Shown here piece after piece: positions 5,051 to 27,227 of a stretch of 51,764 nucleotides of DNA; the stretch's first letter is position 1; every line of letters begins with the position of its first letter. The position numbers and the translations under genes were made by a program. Source of the DNA: an uncultured Leptolyngbyaceae cyanobacterium (GTDB lineage: Bacteria > Cyanobacteriota > Cyanobacteriia > Leptolyngbyales > Leptolyngbyaceae); contig CALIDI010000046.1 of the NCBI GenBank assembly GCA_938023035.1, positions 1 to 51,764 on the forward strand. Direction: 5' to 3'. The notes under the pieces were generated by a model. It searched no databases and was not told the origin of the DNA. It worked only from the letters and a program-made list of their open reading frames with translations.

Positions 5051-6478
5051 TTAACCAGCTTCGTTTCTTCTCAACGTTCCTGCATCACAATTTTGTCGAG
5101 TGACGACTCCAGCGATCGCCCCAATTAACAGCCAACCCAGGAGGTTAATGCGCACATCAAACAGGGTGACATCTAATAAATGAAACAGGGCATAGGCCGC
5201 GATCGCCACCAACCAGGTAAAAAGAATCAGGCGATTTTCTCTGACACCCGGCATGGTTTGGGCCACATCCCCCCGCCAGCACTGCAACAGGCCCACCGCC
5301 TGCACCATTAACCCAATCACCAAACCCAGCAATAGCACCATCGCAGGGATTCCAGCTTCGCTGGCCAGCATCAATGGCAAATTATGGGGATGCCCAATAT
5401 ACACCCCCATCGTATCTCGATAAATCTGGCTGAAGCTGCGTAAACCCCAGCCCCAGACCGGACGCTGCTGGATCAAATCAAGAGCAAAGCGCCACTGAGT
5501 CACCCGTAAATCGGCCACCGGTCGGTTGGGATAGAGCTGATCATTAAGGCGCATCCAAATAAAAGCAGGAACCACCTGACGCAGAGGCTGACTCAAGCGA
5601 TTCGGAGCATAGGCGGCCCCCAAACACACCATCCCAACCGCCACAGCACTGGCTAGCAACCAGTGCCAACCCACATAAAGCGCAAAAATCAAAAAAACAA
5701 ACAGGGCAATCCCCCAGGCGTTGCGCGAGTCGGTCATCACTAGAGAAAGCGTATTACCTAGCACAATCACCCCTAAACCAATACGGTGCAGCCAAGATAA
5801 TTGGTTGGGTGAATCCTGGTCAGGAGTCAGAGTCGATTCCCTGTTTCCCATCGGGTGATTGAATTGGCGGTTTCCCTGCTGCATCCAGCCGAGCGCCTCA
5901 ACCCACAGCCCCAAGCTCATCACCAGGGTGATGCAAAAATAGCTGGCCAGTACATTGGCATAGAAAAATACAGACGACATTCGCCCCGGCGGACTTCCCC
6001 CCGCTGGTATCACCCAATGCACCACCCCCCAGTTGAATCCTCCACCCAGATTTAACCCCTGTTGTGCCAAACCAATCAGCATGACTGGAATCGAAGTCAC
6101 AACTAAAATCCAGCTCAGTCGGCGCAACTGCAAAGGGGTCTGGATCAGTTCGCTGAGGGCGGCACACAACCAGAAAAAGGGTAAGAAGTTAAATAACCCT
6201 AGAACGGCGTCTACCTTGCGCTCAGCAAAAGCGGTACTCAGCAGAAATAACAAAGCGACCAAAAGTAAGCCGCGATTCAGCCAGTGTTTGCCAAACTGTC
6301 GCCATCGCTGCCCCGTGATGCCCAGCAGCCCCAGAGAGAGGCTCACAATCCCAAAGACTGGAAACAGGGGTAACAATAGAAACCCCCATTGAACAAAGAA
6401 CCACTCTTGCCCCAGAGCGCGATCGCACGGAGCCGGTGGAAGAAAGGACAGGCTGATCAGGCGCTTAAGCAACTTCAA
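5051..6478 (-). CDS. O-antigen ligase / Wzy-family membrane protein
   Basis: This is a 475-residue polytopic protein with about ten to twelve hydrophobic spans. It carries the Wzy_C-type periplasmic loop, here with WGWGLRSFSQIYRDTMG and the histidine pair in GHPHNLPLMLASEAGIP. In this superfamily such loops carry the residues that transfer lipid-linked sugar chains. In cyanobacteria the superfamily also includes IctB, once proposed to act in inorganic carbon uptake, so the substrate cannot be fixed from sequence. The reading frame has only a TTG at 6478 (or TTG 6472) near its beginning, and it overlaps the upstream YaaW-like gene by 14 bases, which suggests translational coupling. The glycosylation locus is 20 kb away, so a direct link is unproven. 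Confidence 0.8.
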   Translation of the reverse strand: MKLLKRLISLSFLPPAPCDRALGQEWFFVQWGFLLLPLFPVFGIVSLSLGLLGITGQRWRQFGKHWLNRGLLLVALLFLLSTAFAERKVDAVLGLFNFLPFFWLCAALSELIQTPLQLRRLSWILVVTSIPVMLIGLAQQGLNLGGGFNWGVVHWVIPAGGSPPGRMSSVFFYANVLASYFCITLVMSLGLWVEALGWMQQGNRQFNHPMGNRESTLTPDQDSPNQLSWLHRIGLGVIVLGNTLSLVMTDSRNAWGIALFVFLIFALYVGWHWLLASAVAVGMVCLGAAYAPNRLSQPLRQVVPAFIWMRLNDQLYPNRPVADLRVTQWRFALDLIQQRPVWGWGLRSFSQIYRDTMGVYIGHPHNLPLMLASEAGIPAMVLLLGLVIGLMVQAVGLLQCWRGDVAQTMPGVRENRLILFTWLVAIAAYALFHLLDVTLFDVRINLLGWLLIGAIAGVVTRQNCDAGTLRRNEAG

Positions 6479-7307
6479 AACACTCGGTACGAGTTAAGCG
6501 AATTTGAGCGAGGGCATAGATTGCAGGAATAATGCGCCCATAATTGGTCGCGATCGCCCGCCAGCCTAAATCAGCCAGAAACAGAGTCCACAGAGCCGGG
6601 CCTAACACGGCAAAAACGCTCCGGGCTGCTGCGTAGCGTGCCGCACTCAGAGCCATGCCCCGCTTCGCCAGATGCAACGCCACCTGCCGCTGAATCTGAT
6701 TTGCCGCCACTCCGCCCCCTAGGGCCAATGCTTGTTGAGCTGCCTGGTAACTGGCAAAATGCAGAGCAAACTGGTGAGCGATGTGCTTTAAGAAGAGCGG
6801 TCGAATCACAGAGCTAACCGCTAACGCCCCCCCTCCCTTAACCAAAAGAGCGATCGGCTCCTGCTGAAACGGTATCGGCAACTCTGGCAAAATCTGAGCC
6901 TGGGTTAAGGACTTTTTCAATCGCACCTGCAACGCTCCCTGCTCAGCCTTGGGTAGTTGTTTGCAGGCACGACTCAGCAGGTTTAAGAAAACCTCGGCTT
7001 CCAAATCCTCCACAGACATTGAAGCTTTGTAGGGCAGCTTAAGATAGCGGCAAACCTGCACTAGCACCTGCCTGTAGGTTAACCCATGGGTGCGCCGACT
7101 CAAAACCGTCAGACCATCAGCAGCTAAAAAGCAAAACCGCGCCTCGATCGCATCAAGCCATGCTTCCCGCTCCAGGCTTTGCACATCTAGTGGGTCAGGA
7201 GTACTGACATAATCCAAAGGATTAAATTTGCGTCGAAACAAAATCTCTGTGAGGTCACGCAATTCATCATCAGTCGCCAACTCCAGCACTGACCTTATTT
7301 CGTTCAC
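6465..7307 (-). CDS. YaaW / UPF0174-like protein
   Basis: This 280-residue protein begins with an N-terminal helical domain (VLELATDDELRDLTEILF) typical of the YaaW/UPF0174 group. It ends in an Ala-rich, weakly hydrophobic region with AIATNYGRIIPAIYALAQIR, matching the family's C-terminal pattern. A GTG at 7307 is the start: GGAGG lies six bases upstream, the best Shine-Dalgarno in this part of the window. It is the first gene of a two-gene unit and its end overlaps the ligase-like gene by 14 bases. The biochemical role of the family is not known. The hydrophobic C-terminal half suggests membrane association. Confidence 0.78.
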   Translation of the reverse strand: MNEIRSVLELATDDELRDLTEILFRRKFNPLDYVSTPDPLDVQSLEREAWLDAIEARFCFLAADGLTVLSRRTHGLTYRQVLVQVCRYLKLPYKASMSVEDLEAEVFLNLLSRACKQLPKAEQGALQVRLKKSLTQAQILPELPIPFQQEPIALLVKGGGALAVSSVIRPLFLKHIAHQFALHFASYQAAQQALALGGGVAANQIQRQVALHLAKRGMALSAARYAAARSVFAVLGPALWTLFLADLGWRAIATNYGRIIPAIYALAQIRLTRTECFEVA

Positions 7308-18929: not shown

Positions 18930-19355
18930 ATGAATGGACTGATGAATGGATCGAACACTTCTTATTCTTGCCCGGAAGAGATTCTAATTGTTGATGATCT
19001 CCCAGAAAATTTGAAAATTCTTGCGGCTCTATTACGTCGGGAAGGATATGGTGTACGCTGTGCAACGAGCGGGGCAATGGCCTTGAGATCGGCGCAGTTG
19101 TTTCCTCCTCGTTTGATTTTGCTAGATATTATGATGCCAGAGATGGATGGCTACGAGGTTTGCCGTCAACTAAAGGGTAACCCGGCGACAGCCAAGGTTC
19201 CCGTCATTTTTGTCAGCGCCTTAGATACTGCATCACAAAATGAGAGAGTTTCTGCAATAGGCGGTATAGGTTATATTACAAAGCCTTACCAACTTCAAGA
19301 CTTGCTTATCAAAGTGCAGAGGACGTTGACTCAAGCTGTTCAGTGCAGGGCATAG
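18930..19355 (+). CDS. Single-domain response regulator (CheY-like receiver)
   Basis: This 141-residue receiver has all key residues: the acidic pair in ILIVDDLPEN (22-23), the phospho-acceptor D66 in LLDIMMPEMDGYE, S96 in FVSALD and K118 in YITKPY. There is no output domain, so it must act by protein contact or relay. The sequence is of the type found next to or within cyanobacterial hybrid kinases. The ATG at 18930 is preceded by GAAAGG; a second ATG lies four codons in. The DICT-GAF gene starts 47 bases downstream and is probably co-transcribed. Confidence 0.92.
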   Translation: MNGLMNGSNTSYSCPEEILIVDDLPENLKILAALLRREGYGVRCATSGAMALRSAQLFPPRLILLDIMMPEMDGYEVCRQLKGNPATAKVPVIFVSALDTASQNERVSAIGGIGYITKPYQLQDLLIKVQRTLTQAVQCRA

Positions 19356-19402
19356 AGCCAACTTTTTATTGCCTTGGGTGTATTCTCATTATTATCTTAG
19401 TT

Positions 19403-20506
19403 ATGTCTATCTCGCTATTTCGCTCTATTGCCAATCAATATCAAAATCTTCGGCAAATCAATTCTGTCTCAATGATGAATGTGATCAGTCATCAAATTGA
19501 AGATCAGGTTGTGCAGCGTCATCTGGCCGTTGATTTCTATGCCGGCTTTCAAAAATTCTCAAATTTCCCCGATCAACTACGCCGCTACAGTCGCTTGGGG
19601 GGAGTTTGCCGCAGAGTTTATGTGTTTGGCACTGCCGATTACCGACCAGAACGGTTGCCAGGGGTAGAGTTTGTAGAGATTTCTCCAACTTCTCCTTTGA
19701 CACGTGAATGGTTTCTGTTAGTCGATACGCCAAATTTTTGGACAACTCTGGTGGCTCAAGAAGTAGAAGGGCAAGATGCGATTACGGGGGGACGCTGCTT
19801 TGATGGGCTATGGTCTTTTGATGAGACTGTCGTTGACCGGATCTCATTGTTGGTTTCTCAGGTGATGGAAACGAGCTACGAACCGGTGCAAGTGCGGAAG
19901 CACAGTCAGCAAAACATCCATATCAGTGAAATTCACCGGCGGCTACTGGGGATGCACGAACAGTGTGAGTTAACGAGTCAGCGTCGCTGGGCACAATTGC
20001 GGACTTTGCAGAGTGTTTCAGAATTGACCAGTCGTAATCCACTCGAGCTGTTGCAGGGAGTGGCTCGAATTCTACATACCATTTTTGGTGCAGAGGGAGT
20101 TGTAATTGCTCTAAGGGTTGCAGACGACCAGTTGAAAATACTTGTTGTTGAAGGAAACGCTATTGGTCAGGGTTGGAAGTTGCCACTTTCCCATGGTTTA
20201 AGTGGAAAAGCGCTGCACCAGAAACGGGCAGTACAAATTCTGGATGCGACCCGACGACAGGTGGGTGAACCCCTACTACCTGCGGCGAAGGCTTTGATTG
20301 CCGTACCAATTATGCATCGCTGGGTGCATGGGGCTATTACCATTGGGCATTTGCAGCCCGGTCGTTGGAGCGAGGAAGAAGCTCAGGCACTCATGACCTT
20401 AGGCAGAAGCGTTGCGGTTCACTTGGAACTGTTTCTCAGCCGAAATGCTACGATGAAGAAAAGTTCTGGTTCTAGTAGTGTACCGATTAGCGGCATTCGC
20501 TGCTAA
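19403..20506 (+). CDS. DICT sensory domain - GAF domain protein
   Basis: The N-terminal half has the DICT pattern: a helix with VSMMNVISHQIEDQVV, then VDFYAGFQKFSNFPDQLRRY, a VYVFGTADY strand, REWFLLVDTPNFWTTLVAQE and GRCFDGLWSFD. DICT domains occur with diguanylate cyclases and two-component proteins and are predicted to sense signals; in cyanobacteria some are linked to light or photoreceptor genes. The second half (about residues 215-345) is a GAF domain with AVPIMHRWVHGAITIG. There is no kinase or cyclase. I take the ATG at 19403 (MSISLFRSIAN). The frame reaches back to a GTG at 19343, which overlaps the receiver gene and adds a hydrophobic, unlikely leader. It probably passes a signal to the receiver upstream or the kinase system downstream. 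Confidence 0.85.
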   Translation: MSISLFRSIANQYQNLRQINSVSMMNVISHQIEDQVVQRHLAVDFYAGFQKFSNFPDQLRRYSRLGGVCRRVYVFGTADYRPERLPGVEFVEISPTSPLTREWFLLVDTPNFWTTLVAQEVEGQDAITGGRCFDGLWSFDETVVDRISLLVSQVMETSYEPVQVRKHSQQNIHISEIHRRLLGMHEQCELTSQRRWAQLRTLQSVSELTSRNPLELLQGVARILHTIFGAEGVVIALRVADDQLKILVVEGNAIGQGWKLPLSHGLSGKALHQKRAVQILDATRRQVGEPLLPAAKALIAVPIMHRWVHGAITIGHLQPGRWSEEEAQALMTLGRSVAVHLELFLSRNATMKKSSGSSSVPISGIRC

Positions 20507-21120: not shown

Positions 21121-22722
21121 ATGACTTTGACTAAAGGGCAAACCCCTTCTGCAACATCTATGCCAGTACCGTCTCTTGAGGTTCAGTCCTTTACATCTAT
21201 TCGACGAGGTTGGCAGTACCTCTGGGGAGAAGCGCGCACTCGCGTGTTGTTATGGTATGTACTGATTTTGGGGTTGGTGTTTCTGGCCGGTGTTCCCGCC
21301 TTTCGGTACCTGCTGTTTCAACGAATTGATGAACGTGTGCGCCGGGATATGGCTACAGAGATAGAAATCTTTCGAGATTTGCTAACCTCCAATGAGCCAT
21401 TTCTGTAATCACTAGAGGATTCGGAAACAGAGGGTTTAGAGCGCTTGCAAGAAGACCTCCGGGCAATTAAGACACTGGTTCCACTCAGTTCTAGAGAGAG
21501 CTTAGAAATCTTTTTTAGAAAGTACTTACTCCACCGCATCCCTAAAGATGACACCTTTTTAATCACGTTTATTGATGGCCAGTTCTTTAAATCTAGTCCC
21601 AGGGCGCGGCCTCAACCCCTTCATCGCGAGAGTCTGTTGATGCAGCAGTGGGCCAAACAAACCCAGTCTCGTGCGGGAGAAGTGGAGGTTAACATCCCTG
21701 AGATTGGTAAGGTGATTTATCGAGTTGAGCCGGTGTCGGTCAATGGCAGGCCACGCGGAGTGTTTGTCATTGCCCACGCTACGGCTGGTGAACGCGCAGA
21801 GGTGTTAGATGCCTTAAGTGTGATTTTAGAAGTGTCTTTCGTTTTGTTTTTGATTTCTTTGGTGCTAGCTTGGTTTGCAGCGGGGCGGGTGCTGGCACCC
21901 CTGAGAACGGTAACAATGACGGCTCAAACAATCAGCGAAACGGATCTCTCGCGGCGTTTGCCTGTGCAAGGTAAAGGGGAACTATCAGAACTAGCAGCAA
22001 CGTTTAACGGCATGATGGATCGGTTGGAAACAGCTTTTAGCACCCAGCGAGAGTTTATTAACGATGCGGGCCATGAGTTAAGAACCCCGATTACGATTAT
22101 TCGAGGACATTTGGAACTGATGGAGGACGATCCAGAAGAACAACAAGAAACGTTAGCGCTGGTCAATAGTGAGCTAGAGCGAATGAGTCGGTTAGTGGAT
22201 GACATGATTTTGCTAGCAAAGGCCGAACGCAGTGATTTTTTACGTCTCGCTTTGGTTGATGCTGCTGCGCTGACAACCGATCTGTTTAATAAAGCGATGG
22301 CTCTGGCCGATCGTGACTGGCAGTTGGATGAAGTGGCTCAGGGCTGGATTGTGGTAGACCGCGAGCGGATTACAGAGGCAGTTATGAATCTGGCACAAAA
22401 CGCTACCCAGCATACTAAACCACAAAACGCTACCCAGCATACTAAACCAGAGGATACAATCTCGATCGGATCTACTATTGCTAAGGGTAAGGTTCGTTTT
22501 TGGGTGCGGGATACGGGAGAGGGGATTCCGCTACCGGATCAAAAGCGGATCTTTGAGCGGTTTGCTCGGGCTGCTAATAGTCGTCGCCGCTCTGAAGGGG
22601 CTGGCTTGGGCTTGTCGATTGTCAAGGCGATCGCTGAGGCTCACCATGGGCAGGTACTTCTCCGCAGCAAGCTTGGTGTTGGCTCCATGTTTACCCTGGT
22701 TTTACCATTGGATGTGATGTAG
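21121..22722 (+). pseudogene. Sensor histidine kinase, broken by an in-frame TAA
   Basis: Read through the stop, the frame gives a full kinase of 533 codons. It has a first span VLLWYVLILGLVFLAGVPAF (about 40-60), a periplasmic domain, a second span near 230-250, HAMP (VLAPLRTV...), and the H box FINDAGHELRTPIT with H318. The N box is EAVMNLAQNATQHT, followed by the G boxes DTGEGIP and GAGLGLSIVKAIAEAHHG. The break is the TAA at 21406-21408 (codon 96, in the periplasmic part). The frame is unchanged on both sides, so one substitution in a CAA- or GAA-like codon would explain it. The second part could restart only at a TTG (21445) or later codons and would lack the first span. A perfect 27-base tandem duplication at 22394-22447 adds NATQHTKPQ just after the N box. 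The OmpR-type gene follows after 12 bases. Confidence 0.88.
22394..22447 (+). repeat. Perfect 27-bp tandem duplication inside the kinase gene
   Basis: Two identical 27-base units, 22394-22420 and 22421-22447, repeat nine codons (about QNATQHTKP) in frame. The first copy completes the ATP-binding N box. The second inserts nine residues into the loop before the next strand. Zero divergence implies a recent slippage event. Confidence 0.92.
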
Positions 22723-22734
22723 GATACGCTGCCA

Positions 22735-23403
22735 ATGTCTCATATCCTGATTGCTGAAGATGAACCCCGCATTGCTGCTTTTATTGAAAAGGGGCTGCGT
22801 TCTAACGGCTTTACCACAACTGTTTCTGGTAATGGCCTGGAGACCTTAAGTTTGGTTCAAGGAAAGCCATTTGACTTGCTTATTTTAGACCTGGGTTTAC
22901 CTGCAAAGGATGGCTTAGAAGTACTGGAAGAACTGCGAGGACAAGGTCAAACCTTGCCGGTTATCATCCTCACGGCAAGAGATGGTATTCACGATAAGGT
23001 AACAGGCCTAGAGGGTGGTGCCGATGATTATGTGACTAAGCCATTTCGCTTTGAAGAGCTATTAGCACGGATAAGAGTGCGCTTGCGTAACCTATCCACC
23101 GTTAAGGGCAAAGATCAAGACATTTTGCAGTCAGGAGATGTTTTACTCAACTTGCGTACGCGTCAGGCGATTGTCAGGGGGAATGTGGTTGAGTTGCCTG
23201 TGCGGGAATTTGCCATGGCTGAAGTGTTTTTCCGACATCCCGGGCAAGTGCTGAGTCGAGAGCAGCTGCTCGATAGAGTTTGGGGCTACAACTATGATCC
23301 TGGCTCCAATGTTGTCGATGTTTATGTTGGCTATCTCCGCAAAAAGCTTGGCAGTCAGTTGATTGAAACCGTACGCGGGATGGGTTATCGGCTCAAAACT
23401 TAA
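22735..23403 (+). CDS. OmpR/PhoB-family response regulator
   Basis: This 222-residue protein has an N-terminal receiver (acidic pair in IAEDE, D52 in LILDLGLPAKDG, T80, K102 in TKPFRF) and a C-terminal winged helix. The latter includes REFAMAEVFFRHPGQVLSREQLLDRVWG and the closing NVVDVYVGYLRKKL...VRGMGYRL. It starts 12 bases after the kinase gene and would be its cognate transcription factor. As the kinase is interrupted, this regulator may now be unphosphorylated or served by another kinase. The next receiver gene is 122 bases away. Likely targets include its own operon and the sugar locus downstream, by position only. Confidence 0.95.
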   Translation: MSHILIAEDEPRIAAFIEKGLRSNGFTTTVSGNGLETLSLVQGKPFDLLILDLGLPAKDGLEVLEELRGQGQTLPVIILTARDGIHDKVTGLEGGADDYVTKPFRFEELLARIRVRLRNLSTVKGKDQDILQSGDVLLNLRTRQAIVRGNVVELPVREFAMAEVFFRHPGQVLSREQLLDRVWGYNYDPGSNVVDVYVGYLRKKLGSQLIETVRGMGYRLKT

Positions 23404-23525: not shown

Positions 23526-23888
23526 ATGACTCAGATTCTGATTGTGGAAGACGAAGCTCGTCTGGCAGCCTTTATTGATAAGGGTTTGAGGAAGCATGGG
23601 TTTGACACGGCGATCGCTGAGGATGGTGAGCAAGCTCTGCAAATGGCTGACCAGCCTGGCTTTGACTTGTTGTTGCTTGATTTGGGTCTGCCCTTGATCG
23701 ATGGCTGGACGGTCTTGAAAGAGTTGCGTAGCCGGGGTGAGATGAAGCCAATTATTGTGGTGACCGCGCGAACTGAAGACTATGAGAAGGAATTTGTAAT
23801 GCGGAATGGGGCTACGGATTATGTATCCAAGCCCTTTCGGTTTAGTGATTTGCTCGAACGGATACAGACTCATCTCGCCGCCCAATGA
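23526..23888 (+). CDS. Single-domain response regulator, paralogue of the OmpR receiver
   Basis: This 120-residue receiver is very like the first half of the preceding OmpR-type protein: ILIVEDEARLAAFIDKGLRKHGF against ILIAEDEPRIAAFIEKGLRSNGF, with D52, T80 and K102 at the same positions. The similarity ends where the linker would begin, so it looks like a receiver duplicated without its DNA-binding domain. Its stop overlaps the next gene's start as ATGA (23885-23888), meaning tight translational coupling to the HAMP sensor. The output is unknown; it may compete for phosphate or bind a partner kinase. Confidence 0.9.
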   Translation: MTQILIVEDEARLAAFIDKGLRKHGFDTAIAEDGEQALQMADQPGFDLLLLDLGLPLIDGWTVLKELRSRGEMKPIIVVTARTEDYEKEFVMRNGATDYVSKPFRFSDLLERIQTHLAAQ

Positions 23889-25021
23889 AGCAGCGTTCCC
23901 ATTATTTGAGTCAGATTTCTGCCGATGTCGCTGGTCAAGGCATTCTCAACACCCCTGATCAGAGGTTTGTAGCCTCAAGAACCGGTTGGTTAGGGCGACT
24001 GAAAGTTGGACAAAAGATTTCTTTAGGGTACGCCCTAGTTTTGGGTGTTGCCGTTATTGGTACAGCTATTGGCTTTACAGTGGCTGACCATTATCAAAAA
24101 GAAGCCCAAGAAAAAGAAGAGGATGCGATTGAGGAACTGTATCAGGTTTACCGGCTCAAGAGTGCGGTTTTTCGAGTGCGCACGAAGCAGCACAAGTTGA
24201 TTTTATACATGGATCAGCCCAAAATTTGGCAGGAGAAGTACCAAAAATTTCTTAGCCAGATCGCTCAAGCGCAACAGACTTGGGTAGATTTTAGGGCAAC
24301 CTTTCGTAATCCGGCTCGACGCTTAAAAGATACTCCAGAGGAGAAGCGCGCCTATGAACGGATTATGCGCACAAAGAGTGGTTTTGATAATTATTTAGAG
24401 CAGTCTGAGATACTGTTTCGAGCTAGCGACCCCAGTCATCTTTCCCCAGAATCAGTTGCCTCAGCTCAGGCGAAGTCGTTTAACTTTATGCATAACTCTA
24501 GAGTATTTACCTTAGATGAGTTTTTAACAGATATTGCTCATTTGGTAGAGGTAACGGCCGTTGAATATAATCAGGCAAAGTTAGACTTAAGAAATGCGGA
24601 AAGGCTTCGACTTCAGGTAATTACCGTGAGTATGATATTGTCACTTGTGGTAGCGGCATTGTTAGCACTTTATATGAATCGGGCGATCGCGCGCCCCATT
24701 CAAGCTGTAACCCATGTAGCACAACAGGTGACGGAAGAGTCTAACTTTGATCTGCAAGCACCGATTATGACCAACGATGAAATCGGTATTCTCGCCGTTT
24801 CATTGAATCGACTGATTCAGGAGGTCCAACAATTGCTGGCAGCGCAACGGGAAGCAAATGATCAATTAGAAGTTTACAGTCAGGTCTTAGAAAAAAAAGT
24901 CAAGGAGCGCACTCAAGAACTGAGGGAGAAGAATCAATCCCTTCTGAACGCGCTTGAGGAGCTACACCGTGCCCAAGCCAAACTCGAGCCAGATGAGTCC
25001 GAATTAACCTCAGAAACCTGA
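23885..25021 (+). CDS. HAMP-domain membrane sensor lacking a kinase domain
   Basis: This 378-residue protein has a cytosolic leader of about 40 residues and a first span ISLGYALVLGVAVIGTAIGF (about 45-66). A large helical periplasmic domain follows (about 67-235), then a second span LQVITVSMILSLVVAALLAL. A HAMP domain (AIARPIQAVTHVAQQV... NDEIGILAVSLNRLI) leads to a coiled coil VLEKKVKERTQELREKN. In many cyanobacterial kinases this coiled coil runs straight into the H box. Here the protein ends at LEELHRAQAKLEPDESELTSET, just where that would begin. No H, N or G box follows in any frame of the next 750 bases that I could find. It is coupled to the receiver gene by ATGA overlap. Confidence 0.85.
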   Translation: MKQRSHYLSQISADVAGQGILNTPDQRFVASRTGWLGRLKVGQKISLGYALVLGVAVIGTAIGFTVADHYQKEAQEKEEDAIEELYQVYRLKSAVFRVRTKQHKLILYMDQPKIWQEKYQKFLSQIAQAQQTWVDFRATFRNPARRLKDTPEEKRAYERIMRTKSGFDNYLEQSEILFRASDPSHLSPESVASAQAKSFNFMHNSRVFTLDEFLTDIAHLVEVTAVEYNQAKLDLRNAERLRLQVITVSMILSLVVAALLALYMNRAIARPIQAVTHVAQQVTEESNFDLQAPIMTNDEIGILAVSLNRLIQEVQQLLAAQREANDQLEVYSQVLEKKVKERTQELREKNQSLLNALEELHRAQAKLEPDESELTSET

Positions 25022-25670: not shown

Positions 25671-25788
25671 AAACTCTTCATGCAGTTGTTGTAGAGAACT
25701 GCGAATCTATCAAATGTAGAGCCTAGTCAAAACTAGTTGGTGCGTCAAACCCTAAAGCAATACGGTCGTCTTGAATGAGGTCAGCTTT

Positions 25789-27227
25789 ATGCGAGTCACA
25801 GTAATTGGAACGGGATACGTTGGATTAGTGACCGGTGTGTGTTTGGCAAAAATTGGGCACTCGGTTCTGTGTGTTGATAATAATGCTGAGAAGGTTGATG
25901 TAATGAAATCGGGGCGATCGCCCATTTTTGAACCCGGTCTCGACACTCTGATGCAAGCTGCAATGCAGGCAGGGCACCTGGATTTCACCACTGATTTAGG
26001 GGCGGGTGTCGCTCACGGTGAAATCTTGTTTATTGCTGTCGGTACACCCGCTTTACCCACGGGTGAAAGTGATACACGCTATGTGGAGGCTGTCGCCCGT
26101 GGCATTGGCACGCACCTGAATGGGGGGTATAAAGTTATTGTGAATAAGTCTACAGTGCCCATTGGTTCAGGTGATTGGGTACAGCGGATTGTAATGGATG
26201 GGGTTGCTGATCGGGGGCAGGATATTACAGAGTTTGATGTGGTCAGCAATCCTGAATTTTTGCGCGAGGGTTCTGCCGTTTACGATACCTTAATCCCGAT
26301 CGTATCGTCTTGGGCAGTCACAGCCAGCGGGCGATCGCGCTGATGCAACAGCTCTATGCCCCAATTGTCGAGCGTCAGTATGCCGAAGATCCTTCCCTAC
26401 CCCCTGTGCCAGTAGTGGTGACAGATTTGACTTCGGCAGAGATGATTAAATATGCCGCTAATGCTTTTTTAGCCACTAAAATTAGCTTTATTAATGAAGT
26501 CGCGAATATCTGCGATCGCGTCGGTGCAGATGTTACCCAGGTTGCCAACGGTATTGGTTTAGACTCTCGCATTGGGCATAAATTCTTGCAAGCTGGGATT
26601 GGCTGGGGCGGCTCTTGTTTTCCCAAGGATGTCTCTGCCCTAGTGCATACAGCAAATGACTATGGTTATGAACCAAAGCTATTGCAGTCTGTTATTGAAA
26701 CCAATCGCCAACAACGTTTGCTTGTGATTGAAAAGCTGCAACAAGTCTTAAAAGTGCTCAAGGGTAAAACGATTGGGCTATTGGGGTTGACTTTCAAGCC
26801 CAATACGGACGATTTGCGAGATGCGCCTTCTCTAGATCTCATTGAGGCACTCCATCATTTGGGGGCTAAGGTGCGCGTCCATGATCCACTGATTCACCAA
26901 CCCCACGGACAGGCTGCCCTCGAAGTGGTCACCTTTGTTGAAGTTGCGGAACAATTGGCCAATGGTTGTGATGCCCTGGTATTGGTAACAGATTGGCCAC
27001 AATTTCGTCATCTGAATTACGCCCAGCTTTCCAGTCAGATGGTGACTCCTATTTTCATTGATGGACGCAACTTCCTAGATCCGCTGCTGTTAGCGCAAGC
27101 CGGCTTCTACTACATTGGCATTGGCCGCTCTCAGGGAATCAATGCGCGGCTTACCCGTTGCCTTGCACCAGTAATATCCCAAGCGACTTCTGTAGAGACT
27201 TCTGAACCAGTTTTAGTCAGTGCTTGA
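25789..27227 (+). pseudogene. UDP-glucose 6-dehydrogenase, frameshifted
   Basis: The enzyme oxidises UDP-glucose to UDP-glucuronate with two NAD+. The N-terminal part begins at the ATG at 25789 with the Rossmann loop VIGTGYVGLVTGVCLAKIGH. It stays intact to EGSAVYDT, then shifts frame and stops at 26341. The other frame continues perfectly with NPDRIVLGSHSQRAIAL and runs to 27227, including the catalytic-cysteine motif GWGGSCFPKD and the C-terminal UDP-binding domain. The expected codons are TTY-AAT-CCC where the sequence has TT-AAT-CCC, so one base is missing after 26291. All active-site residues survive, so a single-base repair, or a sequencing error, would restore about 480 residues. It is first in the sugar locus, and the glycosyltransferase follows after 54 bases. 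Confidence 0.92.

Follow-up and report, generated by a model that had tools for sequence, protein, structure and literature searches.

In the window, by which we mean the whole 51,764-nucleotide stretch analyzed here (contig CALIDI010000046.1, from an uncultured Leptolyngbyaceae cyanobacterium), we identified a membrane sensor, KL, that appears to derive from a histidine kinase, to have shed the kinase part, and to persist as a membrane receptor that tunes the HK-OmpR system encoded beside it. We assign this reading a probability of roughly 0.55. The features of the locus are collected in Table 1.

Table 1. Features of the KL locus in the window
Feature	Positions	Strand	Basis
Neighboring histidine kinase (HK), conserved partner, apparently damaged here	21121..22722	+	Domain and sequence comparison
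OmpR-family response regulator, conserved partner	22735..23403	+	Domain search; receiver is sister of REC by tree
Lone receiver (REC), 120 aa	23526..23888	+	Pfam Response_reg 1.9e-26, no other domain
Kinase-less sensor (KL), 378 aa	23885..25021	+	ORF; Pfam; structure model
KL TM1, residues 49-67	24029..24085	+	Hydropathy
KL extracytoplasmic helical-bundle sensor, residues 68-244	24086..24616	+	AlphaFold2 model, Foldseek
KL TM2, residues 245-263	24617..24673	+	Hydropathy
KL HAMP domain, residues 264-316	24674..24832	+	Pfam PF00672 3.8e-9; PDB matches to Af1503 HAMP
KL coiled coil, residues 317-371	24833..24997	+	Alignment; single helix in model

A first-pass annotation of this DNA had described a lone receiver coupled through an ATGA overlap to a two-span sensor without a kinase, and open reading frames, Pfam, and hydropathy confirmed this description; the REC and KL frames share 4 nt (positions 23885 to 23888). 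REC carries an acidic pocket (E8/D9) and the phosphorylation residues D52, T80, and K102 without an output domain, making it a stand-alone, single-domain response regulator. In the window KL, Pfam detected neither HisKA nor HATPase_c, and the HAMP domain is not followed by an MCP signaling (MA) domain, the protein ending at residue 378. The marks of a sensor histidine kinase, a DHp/HisKA domain with a phospho-accepting histidine and an HATPase_c domain, were therefore not found in KL. The same annotation had placed the end of the sensor exactly at the H box; alignment with full-length relatives showed that the coil ends in line with the DHp helix start, slightly ahead of the H box rather than at it. 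Residues 38 to 170 matched 4HB_MCP_1 at 2.3e-6, just above the cut-off. The AlphaFold2 model of KL, built from 16 sequences, had a mean pLDDT of 73 and a pTM of 0.50; ten-residue pLDDT means were 79 to 94 in the sensor, the HAMP was poorly modeled, and one long helix (residues 299 to 372) ran from the HAMP into the coil. When the sensor was searched with Foldseek, the ligand-binding domains of NarQ, Tsr, Tar, and Vc1313 and designed bundles were among the best rows, all of them weak, and none of these best rows reached E<=0.001. By sequence, the HAMP of Af1503 was among the nearest solved relatives of the KL HAMP; we know of no two-component operon for Af1503. A promoter and terminator scan gave scores near the shuffle level.

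Next, whole genomes were queried with the 378-aa window protein. A clear score gap separated kinase-less matches (347 to 506 bits) from full-length kinases (229 bits and lower), and 44 orthologous KL loci were recovered across three cyanobacterial families: f1 (the window and G026; 2 of 42 genomes), f24 (G117 and G249; 2 of 36), and f32 (40 of 217). No orthologue was seen outside these families in samples of 388 genomes of the class and 388 of the f32 order, nor in viral contigs; the plasmid search returned a single record, annotated as a kinase (37%), and a peptide-pattern scan of contigs gave 8 loci with no full-length orthologue. The first-pass annotation had allowed that this copy might be simply truncated, its orthologues all continuing into a kinase; none of the 44 loci does so. 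Forty-two of the proteins stop 46 to 60 residues past a conserved LE[VI]Y motif, and the two f24 proteins stop at 138. The arrangement goes beyond chance: 42 of 44 orthologues share this C-terminal end, and where the receiver is intact its stop and the KL start lie close together in 11 of 12 loci (see below). Two of the loci have an incomplete KL: in L152 it is interrupted by a contig end, and in L153 (G522, 5574-6527, reversed coordinates) it lacks the first ~85 residues, lying mid-contig among unrelated neighbors with HK on another contig, possibly due to a contig misjoin.

To the same effect, a DHp-CA profile built from 21 kinases, and tested on 27 fetched kinases and the 44 KL proteins, recovered 27 of 27 kinases at E<1e-10 and scored 9.8 bits or less in 42 of the KL proteins, the two f24 proteins reaching 30.5 bits (L084) and 27.9 bits (L085). 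All 27 kinases extend 263 to 317 residues beyond the DHp start and have the H-box histidine (25 by motif, L157 and L163 by reading). Among 16 aligned KL members, in which the L084 row is incomplete, Pfam found HAMP in 16, 4HB_MCP_1 in 9, and HisKA or HATPase_c in none; HATPase_c was also absent from L085. No kinase remnant was seen downstream on the KL strand at any of the 44 loci within the 3 kb scanned (776 nt in L139 and 1473 nt in L153), the only downstream kinase matches, at L087, lying on the opposite strand within a separate kinase gene. Gene fission, with the kinase half now elsewhere, was rejected: a relative's DHp-CA has 13 matches in the window genome at E<=1e-30, in frames of 428 to 1922 aa, and none is a free kinase half.

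The origin of KL was evident from comparison with these kinases. Cyanobacterial sensor-HAMP-coil-HisKA-HATPase kinases (e.g., L155 and L045) resemble KL in sensor, HAMP, and coil but run on into DHp and CA, where KL does not. KL is 31 to 41% identical to full-length kinases over the three shared segments; in 4 of the 27 fetched kinases (L052, L169-L171), the match is confined to HAMP and coil, at 53 to 55%. In a tree of 42 KL rows and 26 kinase rows, KL formed one clade with support of 100/100. Moreover, both f24 proteins bear a 94-residue tail that matches a DHp profile at 37.5 and 34.9 bits for L084 and L085, respectively, while the best of 1000 shuffled tails scored 7.1 bits. The alignment shows S or A in place of the phospho-accepting histidine, and the tails do not continue into an ATPase. 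Overall, the identity, the tree, and the DHp-derived tails show, at the level of homology, that KL descends from sensor-HAMP-coil-DHp-CA kinases, and on the same alignments the His-less, DHp-bearing f24 KL is a surviving intermediate of kinase loss. Because the f24 KL groups with the f1 KL (support 100/99), the DHp remnant was probably trimmed independently in f1 and f32, ending at nearly the same position in both.

Pairwise Nei-Gojobori estimates gave dN/dS ratios of 0.07 to 0.35 for KL in 22 pairs, the window-L044 pair being saturated. For the last 60 aligned codons, the ratio was 0.40 or less in 20 of the 22 pairs; the other two, at 0.82 and 1.03, have dS under 0.03 and are hence little informative. 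Judged by these ratios, KL is under purifying selection. The 44 orthologous loci, the dN/dS values, and the common end point rule out KL as a truncation artifact. A related idea, that KL is a degenerate leftover of a kinase truncated by chance and still decaying, would fit its derivation from a kinase as well as its loss in G495, G503, and G509, its reduction in G498, and its N-terminal cut in G522; however, loci in three families that form one clade, with low dN/dS and a shared C-terminal end, make such a leftover very improbable.

The first-pass annotation had also linked the pair to the neighboring kinase, and this link was borne out by the distribution of KL. In 39 of 44 loci, OmpR is encoded no more than 5 kb upstream of KL; the five others comprise two at contig ends (L122 and L152), the locus with the cut KL (L153), and two with HK/OmpR elsewhere in the genome (L132 and L139). 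For f32, HK orthologues were defined by at least 72% identity and 746 bits (the next match having 661 bits), a threshold chosen after seeing the gap. Orthologous HK was found in 44 of 217 f32 genomes, and KL occurred in 40 of these 44 versus 0 of the 173 HK-negative genomes (Fisher 1.8e-39, a statistic that ignores shared ancestry). The co-occurrence also holds where HK and KL are unlinked (G482 and G497); the f32 pattern may come partly from shared ancestry and joint cassette transfer. Of the 42 f1 genomes, 3 carry HK (73%) and 2 carry KL; KL was not seen in the HK-positive G010, where the OmpR frame is cut and little of the contig is left past HK. Four of the 44 HK-positive f32 genomes have no full KL: none was seen in G495, G503, and G509, and in G498 (L226, 4500-4997) it is reduced to residues 208 to 373, the HAMP and coil part, with up to 94% identity. 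Therefore, HK does not need KL, which is dispensable in a few lineages. KL shows the linkage and co-occurrence expected of an accessory regulator of a two-component system. At two loci (L126 and L133), OmpR and a full-length KL are ~4 kb apart, with an opposite-strand ORF and a long ORF, which we take to encode an oxidoreductase, between them.

In the window itself, HK looks damaged. Codon 96 (21406-21408) is an in-frame stop, and 27 bp of the N box, encoding NATQHTKPQ, are exactly duplicated in tandem (22394-22449). The motif was located in 33 HK orthologues, of which 32 have the unduplicated length and the window is the exception. Among 37 loci with HK matches, a stop within the body of the match was seen in the window only. 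In G488 (L203) and G249 (L085), HK matches as two overlapping pieces, which suggests frame breaks at other places in the gene. The apparent damage in the window reflects either an assembly error or a system failing in this genome; in the second case, KL and REC may have persisted here beyond the function of their partner.

In the HK of L086, the HAMP (245-296) is directly followed by HisKA (301-361; Pfam) with no matching coil, so coil-to-coil pairing between KL and HK is not obvious. KL could instead pair in trans through its coil with other HAMP-coil kinases, as the non-catalytic subunit of mixed dimers. Its coil is conserved and closely resembles kinase coils, and one frame of the window genome is 42% identical to KL residues 255 to 370 directly before a DHp-CA match. 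However, the window genome has no full-length sensor-level paralogue (next match, 32.8 bits), and such pairing leaves the co-occurrence of KL with HK-OmpR unexplained; we regard it as unlikely.

The lone receiver has a history of its own. REC is 50% identical to the adjoining OmpR receiver, which scores highest against it in the genome (117 bits, the second match having 84), and is its sister in the tree, in agreement with the paralogy that the first-pass annotation had proposed. Lone receivers have a single origin (100/99) and are sister to the neighboring OmpR receivers (51 rows together, 100/99, on 118 columns only), with 47 to 55% identity between the two groups; alpha-4 is the segment that they share least (2 of 14 positions). 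The phosphorylation residues are kept in 12 of 12 intact lone receivers. A motif scan found no receiver gene within 4 kb of the 27 full-length kinase relatives, which speaks against an ancestral REC-kinase pair; duplication of the OmpR receiver is the more probable source of the lone receiver.

Twelve of the 44 loci have an intact receiver, 23 retain it as a remnant or scar (21 loci plus L132 and L139), and in 6 it was not seen; L122, L152, and L153 were not classed. Only the last 32 to 40 nt are left in 12 of the 23 remnants, at 82 to 91% identity and directly before the KL start codon, as would be expected if this stretch held KL translation start signals. The KL tree needs about four receiver changes, three of them forced by well-supported branches; the scars point to losses in f32, and f24 shows no scar. 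The combination of receiver and KL is thus probably ancient and has since been abandoned in many lineages.

These losses bear directly on the first-pass proposal that receiver and sensor may form a signaling unit, taken here as an obligate pairing of two proteins. Where the receiver is intact, its stop lies -31 to +3 nt from the KL start in 11 of 12 loci (+108 in the 12th) and its dN/dS is 0.08 to 0.41, indicating purifying selection; DivK-DivL, as described in PMC4211667, would be a precedent for a receiver working with a pseudo-kinase. Nevertheless, an obligate unit is hard to reconcile with a receiver that is so often reduced or lost through repeated changes in the tree while KL is kept under purifying selection, and 42 of 44 KL proteins have no DHp on which a receiver could dock. 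The proposal did not hold up in this form, and we consider it rather improbable.

The reading that we favor, KL as a receptor tuning HK-OmpR, can be put as follows. KL would sense its own stimulus through the extracytoplasmic domain and pass the signal via TM2, HAMP, and coil. By hetero-associating with HK, in the membrane or in the HAMP/coil region, it would bias the kinase/phosphatase balance and thereby add a second input to the OmpR output, perhaps on the adjoining glycosyltransferase genes. REC would be an optional extra target of the same kinase, either a phosphate sink or a second output, lost in many lineages. The association of KL with the HK-OmpR pair is seen directly in the genomes; the contact with HK and the direction of the effect are what we infer.

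Parts of this scheme resemble known systems. RocA of group A Streptococcus, according to PMC6635533, is a membrane protein and accessory of a separate HK-RR pair, has a histidine-kinase-like ATPase motif, and binds CsrS through its membrane region. In contrast to KL, which has two spans, a HAMP, and a coil and is encoded beside HK, RocA crosses the membrane seven times and retains an ATPase-like domain in the cytoplasm. DivL of Caulobacter is, according to PMC4211667, a pseudo-histidine kinase that acts without kinase activity and is functionally tied to the response regulator DivK; its catalytic domains are retained and repurposed to bind DivK~P, whereas 42 of 44 KL proteins lack both DHp and CA, and KL outlives its receiver. 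Both precedents show that kinase-like proteins can act as accessories. Af1503 of Archaeoglobus shares with KL a transmembrane architecture with a C-terminal HAMP and no output domain; according to PMC3585426, it is archaeal and has no periplasmic input domain, whereas KL, a descendant of kinases, also has a sensor and a coil of 55 residues.

Degenerate accessory kinases, output-less HAMP proteins, and single-domain receivers are each already known. Our search of open-licence PMC papers found no description of a conserved sensor-HAMP-coil family with a His-less DHp intermediate tied to one HK-OmpR pair, which is no proof of absence. More tentatively than for the tuning of HK, we suggest that KL represents a receptor family with HAMP and coil as its sole cytoplasmic output, reached by stepwise loss of CA, phospho-accepting histidine, and DHp and fixed as an input subunit that relays its signal, one receptor to another, into a separate kinase. 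The lone receiver would then be a transitional partner that is being discarded. If true, the family would provide a naturally occurring example of HAMP or coil signaling in trans. The evolutionary series runs from full kinases through a His-less DHp remnant without ATPase to a form with only HAMP and coil; these last two forms belong to a single clade. If KL tunes HK, it would offer a minimal natural system for asking whether HAMP/coiled-coil segments pass signals between receptors. There is also a warning for annotation, as proteins like KL need not be broken kinases.

The neighborhood provides a hint about the output. The window's three glycosyltransferases belong to the Pfam Glyco_tran_28_C and Glyco_trans_1 families, and glycosyltransferases 61 to 83% identical to them lie near KL, placed after it, in 16 of the other 43 loci. 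Since these genes adjoin KL, control of polysaccharide is a plausible output. A different mechanism would be an output outside two-component signaling, in which KL acts directly on the polysaccharide machinery encoded next door. Besides the gene neighborhood, it could draw on Myxococcus, where, according to PMC12802240, a single-domain receiver activates EPS synthesis. However, no glycosyltransferase neighbor is in view in the other 27 loci, whose views are limited, and HK-OmpR is nearly constant, so direct action of this kind seems quite unlikely.

Further genes around the locus are of note. In the window, 25771-26343 and 26310-27227 are one gene split into two overlapping frames, which is a single 478-aa ORF in G026 (L044, 2205-3641); the gene at 25771-27227 presumably encodes UDP-glucose dehydrogenase. 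Between KL and this gene, G026 carries ORFs at L044 4120-5256, which we take to be transposase pieces. Finally, another lone receiver, of 141 aa, overlaps a DICT-GAF protein at 18930-20506 of the window, and a receiver 65% identical to it lies upstream of HK in G026.
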